A stretch of DNA of 64,000 bases from Haliotis asinina (Eukaryota > Mollusca > Gastropoda > Lepetellida > Haliotidae), in assembly GCF_037392515.1 (NCBI RefSeq), contig NC_090291.1:17201501-17265500 (forward strand), read 5' to 3'. Position numbers and translations under genes: made by a program. This document shows positions 32,661 to 62,444 of the stretch, piece after piece; position 1 is the stretch's first letter, and each line of letters opens with the position of its first letter. The notes below the pieces were generated by a model. That model was not told the origin of the DNA, searched no databases, and saw only the letters and a program-made list of their open reading frames with translations.

Positions 32661-33396
32661 ATGGATGCCTCCCTCGGTACGAAGGTAGCAGCCGCCTTGG
32701 CGGTTCTGGTTGCCGTCATTCTGGGCGAGCTGTATGTCTTGTCTCTTCATTGGGAAAGAAAGGCTAGACTGTTGAGATTGCAGTTCGTCATTTTAATACA
32801 AGCATTCCTGACTCTTCTCTCCAGATTTGTGTGGAACAACTTCTCGACTGTGTTAGATAAGGCACCACAAAAGGAAGGGCTAAGATATGACAAATGTTCG
32901 GATAAAGATAATTATCAGAAGGACGTGATTCAACCAAATCTCAAGAAGTGGACAATATGGAGGATTTTTCTTATAACCTACTTAGGATCATGCCACATCA
33001 GTTACTTGATGAACTTTTATTTCATAGGTCGAGAACCGTATCTTATAGCATACAGTTGTTACGCGGCACTTGGGCTGTTGTTTCAGATAGTGACAGGTTT
33101 AGTGTTTGTGAAGGTTGTTACGTTTTGTTTAAGAAACATATTTAAAAGTAAAGCCGTCTTTTCAAAGCAGCGAAAATTACAGCTTGTACTTATTTATGCT
33201 ATTCTTTTTTGGACATATGGTCTCTATAATGCTGCTAGTGCTCCTGTTGTGAAAGAAGTCCCCATTCCAGTCAAAGGATTGCCTGCATCTCTTGATGGAT
33301 TCAGAATTGTACAAATATCTGACATTCATCTTGGACCAACTGTTGGAAGATGGAGACTTACTCGCATAGTAAATATCATTAATGAGCTGGATGCAG
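32661..33396 (+). CDS. TMPPE: TMPPE-like A exon 1
   Basis: 736 nt from ATG to donor GATGCAG/GTAAAT, coding all the membrane segments and the first metal motif ISDIHLGPTVGR. Same length as copy B exon 1. Confidence 0.93.
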
Positions 33397-59500: not shown

Positions 59501-62444
59501 AGTGCTAATCTGTCCAAAAGCAGAATTTGTGTGACGTATACTTGGAGGAGACCTGTTAAGATCTGGGTTAGAATAGGTCTTTAGTTAACCATGCTTGGTC
59601 TAGTTGTTGTAAGAGGAGACTGACATCGGTTGGTGAACCTCACTGACTTGGTTGACACATATAATCGTATCTCAGCTGACTTGTTTGCATCAGTGTTCAT
59701 ACTGTTGATCACTGGTCAAAGCTTCTTCATGCTGTTGATCATTGGATCACTAATCAAAGCTTGATTACTTACACTAATAAAGCTGAACTTTTGCTGAGTC
59801 AATTTGAAAACATCAATGTTCATGCTGTTGATCACTGGATCACTGGTCAAAGCTTGTTCATGCTGTTGATCACTGGATTACTTACACTCATAAAGTTGAA
59901 CTTTTGCTGAATGCAACATTGAACAATGAACAAACAAAAGCAAACGCTTCGTGAAATACAGAATGGCCTATTTCTCCGCTGCATAAACATGTTTAAAATA
60001 TTATCATTTTAGGAGTTAGAGGGTCGACATATATAAAGCAAAAACTTACTGTCTGTAGACTGTTGGTAACTGACCAACCAACATAACAAGTTTGCAGGAG
60101 TCAATGACAGTCCATAATTAGATATTTTCTAATGAAGTAAAGTTCATTATTATGCAAGGAATGCACTTTGTCAAGAATTTAAATACTGATGTTGCACATA
60201 TGATATTACTGGTCTGAACCCTATCTACTGTGAGATATCTTTAGCAATACACATTGTTTGGTTTAGTTCATTTTGTTATGAAAATTACAGGTACCAACTG
60301 TGTTTTGGGTCCAAGTGGAGATTGTATCCTCTTCTCAGGCATTTCAATGATGAACTGAATCTTCAACCCATACGCACTCAAAAAATTTGTAACACGACAC
60401 CTGTATTATGTTAAAGGTCACATGCAACGTAAAACACAACTTTGCAGATTCTGGTACCTATCGGTATGCACTTACCGAAACAAATCATAAAAAATGCCAA
60501 TTCAACCTATAAAGTTGAAAAAAAAAACGTGATGAAAAAAAGTCCATAACGCATGCGCAGTGAATAAATTCACGGAGCTTGAAACAGTATTCATGCCCAG
60601 CGTCTGAGGTCGTGAGCAGTAGTCTAATCTTGGTTGTGTACACAAACAAGTAAATAATCTACTCGTTAAGTAAAACAACTTGTTGATTGTGGAAAGCAGT
60701 CTCTGTCACAGGAAAAGCACAGTGTCTGGTTTATTAACACCTATATGTCTGTCTGCCTGTCTGCTAAAGACAACATGCAATACAGAGCTTCAATCATTGA
60801 CCACGTACAATTTGAACTTAACACCTATCAGACTATACGACATAAAGAAAATAAGTTGATTTGTGACTCGTGCACCCGAGTCCATGTGTAATTAGGCACG
60901 TGTGATACACATGACATGTTTTTATGTCTGTGGGTTGCAACCAAACTACATTCATTTTTTCGGATGACTGGATCTGACGGAAACTGGTGCAAACTCTTGT
61001 CAGTTTCAAGTCCTGCTTTGTACTTGGACGAATGACAGATTCCAGCCACGCAGTAGTTTACCATCTCTACTGACATGATTTTGGATTGGATCGAGCGCAA
61101 ATTCAGAGAACAGGTATTTTCCAAACCCAACATCTCTATATACATTCTTCATGGATAACGACTTCTTTTAGTGTATATGATTTTGTTTGACAACAGTATA
61201 TGAATCCATACTGAAACGATGCATCAAGTACACAAAAAGAAGTTGTTATCCATAAAGAATCTTACTTTCTTGTGACTGGCTATACTTCTAAAACGCCCAT
61301 CAAACAGATCATCTTTCTGTACACACAATGAACCCTCAGCATATCAGCAAATGAAACAGCCATTCAGAAGCCGTCGTTACTTTTGAGTGCATATCCACCC
61401 GCTATGACTGGGTTTGGTCTCCCGAGGGCTTCGTTTCGGGGGAAGTAAGCCCAAGTCCAAAATACTGCACTTTTGAATCGCGATTGTACGCTTATAATTT
61501 TGTTTATTTGTTTTTTTAAAAGCAGCAATGTATATTATATGTCATGATAAATGTGTTTTAATTACGTTTGATTTTTTGGTTGCATGTGACCTTTAACAAG
61601 CCGTGGTCATGGTATTGCTAAGGTCAAAAGGTGCTTTTCTGGTTTTGGAAATGCCATGGCATTTTTTTTTGCTTGAATATTGCTTAACTCTGACTTATTT
61701 ACTTAACATCACTGTTTCAATTTCATATTTACCTGCATCCAGCTCATTAATGATATTTACTATGCGAGTAAGTCTCCATCTTCCAACAGTTGGTCCAAGA
61801 TGAATGTCTGATATTTGTACAATTTTCAACCCATCAAGAGATGCAGGCAATCCTTTGACTGGAATGGGGACTTCTTTTACAACAGGAGGAGTAGTAGCGT
61901 TGTAAAGACCATACGTCCATAAAAGAATAGCATAAATAAGTACTAACTGTAATTCCCGTTGTTTGGAAAAAAAGAGATTGCTTTTAAAAATGAACCTGAA
62001 ACAAAACAGAACAACCTTCACAAACACTAAACCTGTCACTATCTGAAACAACAGCCCAAGCGCCGCATAAGAACTGTATGCTATAACATACGGTTCTCGG
62101 CCTATGAAGTAAAAGTTTGTAAAGTAACTGATATGGCATAGTACTAAGTAGGTTAGAAGAAAAATCCTCCATACTGTCCACTTCTTGAGATCACATTGGG
62201 CAACGTCCATCTGATGAAGATCTTTATCTGAATATTTGACATGTCTAAGTCCTTCCTTCCGTGGCGGTTTATCGAACATGATCGAGAAGTTATTCCAAGC
62301 AAACTTGGAGAGAAGAATCAAGAATACTTGTGCAAAAATGACAAACTGCAACCTTGACATTTTTGCCTGGAGAGACAAAACATACATCCCACCCAGAATG
62401 ACGGCAAGCAGAACTGCAACCTTAATAACGAAAGCGACAGCCAT
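56390..62444 (-). CDS. TMPPE: TMPPE-like membrane metallophosphoesterase, copy C (5 exons, 441 aa)
   Basis: Exons 62444-61733, 59376-59266, 58062-57894, 57644-57505, 56583-56390 (712, 111, 169, 140, 194 nt) join in phase to 441 residues. Exon 1 is 24 nt shorter than in A and B: about four residues are missing in the first hydrophobic segment and four in the following loop (LSLQAKMSRLQF against LSLHWERKARLLFVQF). Metal residues are all kept (D213, H215, D245, N276, H357, H379, H381). Intron 1 is enlarged by a THAP-remnant TIR element and SINE pieces. It lies head-to-tail with B, and exons 1 and 5 are closest to B, so B and C look like a tandem duplication. Confidence 0.93.
57505..57644 (-). 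CDS. TMPPE: TMPPE-like C exon 4
   Basis: 140 nt; acceptor TTAAACTTTCAG, donor CTGTCAG/GTAGCC. Carries VILLAHQPKAAK; about five bases differ from B. Confidence 0.94.
57894..58062 (-). CDS. TMPPE: TMPPE-like C exon 3
   Basis: 169 nt; acceptor TTTCTCTTTCAG, donor GATAGG/GTAAGG. Begins with GNHEYYTGD. Confidence 0.94.
59015..59190 (-). mobile_element. Old SINE family 1 copy in copy C intron 2
   Basis: Plus strand: CAGCTATATCTGAGCTATGT, GACAGTGGTCTGTAGAAAGT, TTAGTGAGTCTGTCAACCCG, CGTCTCTTATGTCAAGCATG. Shared with A and B. Confidence 0.65.
59266..59376 (-). CDS. TMPPE: TMPPE-like C exon 2
   Basis: 111 nt; acceptor ATCTCCTTTCAG, donor TTACAG/GTGCAC. Encodes DVVVMTGDLVDGSVASLKE and FGKYFITG. Confidence 0.93.
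59555..59910 (+). mobile_element. SINE family 1 with internal repeats, copy C intron 1
   Basis: CATGCTTGGTCTAGTTGTTG, ACTTGGTTGACACATATAAT, then CATGCTGTTGATCACTGGAT and GGTCAAAGCTTGTTCATG repeated several times in tandem. Confidence 0.6.
60411..61596 (-). mobile_element. 1.2-kb TIR element with THAP zinc-finger remnant, copy 2
   Basis: TTAAAGGTCACATGCAACG at left and GTTGCATGTGACCTTTAA at right, both ending in TTAA. On the minus strand from about 61066 a THAP-like start reads [20 protein letters not shown], then SLHQFPSDPVIRK, and CVSH about 40 residues after the second cysteine. That fits the C2CH spacing (C-x4-C, then ~41, then C-x2-H) although the usual tryptophan is not seen. Same element as 23144-24438; sits in intron 1 of TMPPE-like copy C. 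Confidence 0.7.
61733..62444 (-). CDS. TMPPE: TMPPE-like C exon 1
   Basis: 712 nt from ATG (context AAACAACATGGCTG) to donor GATGCAG/GTAAAT. Codes the membrane part and ISDIHLGPTVGR. Confidence 0.93.

Follow-up and report, generated by a model that had tools for sequence, protein, structure and literature searches.

A cluster of three intact TMPPE-like genes in Haliotis asinina, probably derived from local DNA-level duplication

Proteins of the TMPPE type, such as human Q6ZT21 and F40B5.2 of Caenorhabditis elegans, are approximately 450 residues long and combine N-terminal helices with a C-terminal calcineurin-like domain, and it is this architecture that is encoded three times in a 64-kb window of the H. 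asinina assembly (C12:17,201,501-17,265,500), i.e., the whole stretch of DNA analysed here, to which all feature positions refer unless stated otherwise. Where the window holds three clustered genes (A, B, and C), human has one TMPPE gene. The three proteins are putatively assigned to the TMPPE type on grounds of this architecture. The reading preferred here, with good confidence, is that a single TMPPE-type gene was triplicated locally through duplication of DNA, all copies being under purifying selection and most likely functional. In the available passages of one study, human TMPPE is listed as a five-helix protein of obscure function (PMC8327215), which backs the initial annotation in describing the family as poorly understood. 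As for F40B5.2, the passages available report a hit by RNA interference in a TDP-43 screen that a mutant allele did not reproduce (PMC6934317).

Among bacteria, the polytopic YkuE-like family is described, in the passages available, as having four helices, the last of which is preceded by a twin-arginine motif, these four-helix proteins being predicted substrates of the Tat (twin-arginine translocation) system with an extracytoplasmic domain (PMC5449189). The window proteins resemble these metallophosphoesterases in that membrane helices precede the same domain, but an inspection by eye of the alignment of A, B, and C with four bacterial relatives (seven sequences, termed A2) revealed no twin-arginine pair before the last helix (helix 5) of A, B, C or the Proteobacteria relatives. 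LpxG, the UDP-2,3-diacylglucosamine diphosphatase of Chlamydia, exhibits a two-metal calcineurin-like domain, a membrane anchor and a GHXH motif, according to the passages available (PMC4807358). All these features recur in the window proteins and LpxG is the best NCBIfam match, but the score of 79 bits lies below the equivalog cut-off of 350, and LpxG has one helix against about five predicted in the window proteins. Animals, besides, are not known to make lipid A. The YaeI phosphodiesterase was also matched, over residues 212-443 (numbering of A, as for all protein positions), but its 66.2 bits stay under the equivalog cut-off of 188 bits and the model, 271 positions long, has no membrane part.

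Gene structure, protein family and copy number

Mapping of the window at the protein level revealed exactly three sets of five exons, with A on the plus strand and both B and C on the minus strand; B and C are arranged head-to-tail, and A and B converge:

32661..33396, plus strand, copy A exon 1 (membrane helices and start of the catalytic domain)
34080..34190, plus strand, copy A exon 2 (GD motif)
35013..35181, plus strand, copy A exon 3 (GNHE motif)
35625..35764, plus strand, copy A exon 4 (LLAHQP motif)
37714..37907, plus strand, copy A exon 5 (GHTHGGQ motif, stop)
49812..50547, minus strand, copy B exon 1
49027..49137, minus strand, copy B exon 2
48043..48211, minus strand, copy B exon 3
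47730..47869, minus strand, copy B exon 4
46123..46316, minus strand, copy B exon 5
61733..62444, minus strand, copy C exon 1 (eight codons shorter)
59266..59376, minus strand, copy C exon 2
57894..58062, minus strand, copy C exon 3
57505..57644, minus strand, copy C exon 4
56390..56583, minus strand, copy C exon 5

Gene models with GT-AG introns yield proteins of 449 (A), 449 (B), and 441 (C) amino acids. All 12 introns, four per gene, start with GT and end with AG; the intron phases (1, 1, 2, 1) and the lengths of exons 2-5 (111, 169, 140, and 194 nt, stop included) are common to the three copies, and exon 1 measures 736 nt in A and B and 712 nt in C, where the eight codons fewer appear as two gaps near the N terminus. 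Each reading frame contains a single stop, namely its last codon. Used as tblastn queries, the exons matched the other copies with E values from 7.8e-129 to 6.9e-19, and the likeness is thus not a matter of chance. The true start of A is uncertain, since its frame stays open for 59 codons 5' of the given start and contains an in-frame ATG 48 nt upstream, at 32613. Next to the start codon of C, 11 nt upstream, lies the string ATGTAA (a start then a stop) at 62455-62450. Together with the signature of purifying selection reported below, these models agree with the initial annotation, which had proposed three intact TMPPE-like genes in an inverted plus tandem arrangement with no pseudogene among them; the five exons, identical phases, identical exon 2-5 lengths and full set of metal-binding residues that it ascribed to each copy were all recovered in the rebuilt models.

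Regarding the protein family, PF00149 matched A with 72.1 bits (gathering cut-off 21.5) and matched all seven members of A2, B and C included, at E <= 0.001. Seven residues, namely D221, H223, D253, N284, H365, H387, and H389, are invariant throughout A2. These residues are the metal ligands expected for the family. The ligand set DxH, GD, GNH, H, GHxH is complete in A, B, C and the four bacterial proteins, and the four-layer alpha/beta/beta/alpha fold by which the calcineurin-like metallophosphoesterase superfamily is recognised was found. A sequence search of the A protein against the PDB returned one chance match (E 0.51), and Rfam gave no match over the whole window. A first AlphaFold model, built from A, B, and C alone, was poor (mean predicted local distance difference test score of 41.2) and was not used.

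Matches to A were present in 196 of 72,556 plasmid records, none of them spanning 80% of A; among the 15 plasmid matches listed, identity was 34-44% and several began inside the membrane part. For the four bacterial relatives that were aligned over their full length, overall identity to A is 32-34%, with alignable sequence from about residue 100 of A. By hydropathy, they exhibit two to four clear helices, and five in one case, where a segment falls in the catalytic domain. As bacterial relatives share this layout, the association of helices with a phosphoesterase domain is an old design that is not restricted to animals. Scanning genome contigs with two weak peptide patterns yielded two distant phosphoesterases, which lack membrane helices of the kind seen in the window proteins and were kept out of the tree; two further scans of viral contigs gave one new weak locus only.

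The assembly (1,143,192,487 bases in 159 contigs) was searched with protein A at E <= 0.001, giving 15 matches from 16 candidates, all scored; there are three matches per exon, all within the window, and no fourth copy was detected outside it by this search. The three genes are thus the only set detected in the assembly, in support of a local expansion; the restriction of this expansion to one lineage, proposed in the initial annotation, is a hypothesis. A PF00149 profile search of the same assembly gave 18 matches, none in the window, the exons of the window genes being too short for this profile to detect. Elsewhere in the assembly, a 23-kb stretch at C1:86543819-86566580 holds three of these phosphoesterase matches, all on the same strand and with open frames of 302, 306, and 281 amino acids; they may represent a second tandem cluster, from a different phosphoesterase subfamily.

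Divergence and origin of the copies

At the amino-acid level, A and B are identical at 382 of 449 positions, A and C at 366 of 441, and B and C at 378 of 441. Synonymous distances of the three pairs are 0.236, 0.274, and 0.231, and the ratios of non-synonymous to synonymous rates (dN/dS) are 0.34, 0.33, and 0.32 (upper bootstrap limits of 0.50, 0.46, and 0.45), from which purifying selection is deduced. Global alignment, which may inflate intron distances, gave identities of 67, 66, and 62% for intron 2 and of 61% for intron 1 of A versus B. Since introns and flanks are homologous among the copies, the duplication took place at the DNA level and not by retrocopying. The flanks are shared as follows, A and C having in addition about 200 bp in common upstream (at 32451 and 62661):

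38095..39528, plus strand, 3' flank of A, of which 38095-38449 matches the 3' flank of B (45962-45595, 69%)
38674-39045 and 39104-39528, plus strand, further parts of the 3' flank of A, matching the 3' side of C (54226-53891, 66%, and 53250-52818, 76%, respectively)
42164..42473, plus strand, outer end of the duplicated 3' flank of A (75% identical to 52279-51949, minus strand)
51949..54226, minus strand, 3' side of C homologous to the 3' flank of A, marking the inverted duplication

The 3' flank of A and the DNA on the side of C are collinear in inverted order as far as 51949, and the 3' flank of B matches A via 45962-45595 and C via 45563-45439. The arrangement would have arisen from one inverted copy (A versus the B/C side) and one head-to-tail pair (B and C). 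In a protein tree built from the catalytic part and including seven bacterial-type relatives, B groups with C at 69% bootstrap, the outgroup being very distant. Among codons with unchanged amino acid, the sites supporting one pair or another are unevenly spread, with 13 for BC, 1 for AB and 1 for AC at codons 151-245 and a longest BC run of 9 (permutation p 0.005); this block in the sequence suggests some gene conversion within the tandem pair.

Change is likewise uneven along the protein. The catalytic exons 3-4 show 0-3 amino-acid differences per pair (3/103, 3/103, and 2/103 codons). Where the amino acid is conserved, their codons carry 9 synonymous changes at 68.0 degenerate sites, compared with 61 at 169.7 sites in the rest of the coding sequence (permutation p 0.00065, for exons picked after seeing the data). 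Fisher tests of exons 3-4 versus exons 1 and 5 gave p 0.0022, 0.0029, and 0.0025 for pairs that share data. The 60-nt intron flanks of exons 3-4 are 65-84% identical, much like other flanks; as the flanking introns are not similarly kept, gene conversion is not favoured as a complete explanation of the low synonymous change. Residue 428 is tryptophan in A and in all seven bacterial-type proteins, phenylalanine in B and methionine in C. Tentatively, and with rather low confidence, the copies may be kept alike at the catalytic part while parting in the membrane part and at residue 428, the synonymous rate of exons 3-4, lowered to about one third, stemming from exon-focused conversion or from selection on exon RNA; they would then share their chemistry, the differences between them concerning where in the membrane they reside or how the substrate enters.

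Several repeats accompany the copies. One of 1.06-1.09 kb occurs both in intron 1 of C (60542-61598) and left of the cluster (23355-24440), at 90.6% identity, and is probably a mobile element whose insertion followed the duplication. A 91-bp unit is repeated 8.2 times at 40739-41483 (98% match), just past the 3' flank of A; upstream of A lie a 213-bp unit (3.2 copies, 30180-30868) and AATA in 31.5 perfect copies (27237-27362).

Alternative explanations and proposed function

A first alternative is an assembly artefact, in which haplotypes or collapsed repeats came to be represented as three genes; allelic copies, however, would be far closer to each other. The divergence is far beyond the allelic level, with coding identity of 88-90% (i.e., 10-12% coding divergence) and introns that are 61-67% identical and of different lengths; one copy is inverted, and intron 1 of C carries the 1-kb repeat absent from A and B. 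An artefact, which the initial annotation had named as a refuting outcome, is hence hardly credible, given the coding divergence along with that of the aligned introns (33-39%). A triplication that is old, common to many related animals and kept uniform by gene conversion such that synonymous divergence understates its age, would account for the clustering of BC sites at codons 151-245 and for introns (Kimura two-parameter distance 0.44-0.56) more diverged than synonymous sites; but the latter distances may be inflated by the global alignment, and introns and flanks still align over much of their length, which is more compatible with an age of tens of millions of years than with the split of the mollusc classes half a billion years ago, under the rates and dates assumed. 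The age itself depends on the assumed rate; an old triplication is judged unlikely.

It can also be envisaged that one or two copies are dying and still look intact, as C lacks eight codons near its start and both B and C have changed an otherwise-kept tryptophan; but with dN/dS of 0.32-0.34 in every pair, hardly any amino-acid difference in exons 3-4, and splice sites and ligands intact, such decay is quite improbable. Similarly doubtful is a membrane scaffold or sensor retaining the phosphoesterase fold without catalysis. No substrate of TMPPE is given in the passages available of PMC8327215, PMC6934317, PMC10152607, PMC5449189, and PMC4807358 or in the other TMPPE literature found, as a scaffold would have it, but none of the seven ligands varies among A, B, C and the four bacterial relatives, and the exons carrying them change least.

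With three functional phosphoesterases as the preferred interpretation, about five membrane helices in the N-terminal part would tether the catalytic domain to the surface of the membrane, where two metal ions (probably Mn2+) held by the seven ligands would activate water. The bond that this domain probably cleaves is a phosphodiester or a pyrophosphate, in a substrate that is most likely lipid-linked or otherwise membrane-borne. The catalytic domain would slightly more readily face the lumen or the cell exterior than the cytosol; this is a tentative preference, because the relatives show, by eye, no twin-arginine pair before the last helix and two of them have charges in keeping with a cytoplasmic domain. 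Having extra copies would increase the dose or allow expression to be divided; divergence of B and C is already under way in the helices and at residue 428.

Some points weigh against this interpretation, namely (i) the five N-terminal helices of the structure model are of low confidence (block means 33-64), (ii) simple hydropathy gives five segments in C and three each in A and B, (iii) the net charges in C differ little (+5 versus +3) and weakly support the orientation, (iv) it is the Mycetohabitans and Rhizobium relatives whose charges fit a cytoplasmic catalytic domain, (v) the membrane substrate is suggested by analogy with LpxG, whose cut-off is not reached, and (vi) a strongly diverged fourth copy could escape the protein A search, just as the window genes escaped the profile search. 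As a gene-family event the cluster is ordinary, small local duplications being common, and neither the TMPPE-type family nor its active site is new; three natural variants with the active site alike and the membrane part different offer, however, a ready comparison for finding the substrate. A literature search on mollusc or gastropod expansions found no paper on TMPPE at listing level, subscription literature being mostly outside its reach.

Neighbouring genes

Left of the cluster, exons encoding WD40 repeats lie at 197-1350 on the minus strand (Pfam WD40, 1.9e-7), with more apparently in the flanking piece leftward (L048); the protein reads like WDR7. On the right, 10-30 kb from the window, an EF-hand exon and an acyltransferase exon are found on the minus strand (flanking pieces L046:2037-2330 and L047:2060-2338), which together read like LPCAT. 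Long frames at L045:351-1358 and L049:6896-8630 resemble, by eye, a Tc1/mariner-type transposase and a reverse transcriptase.
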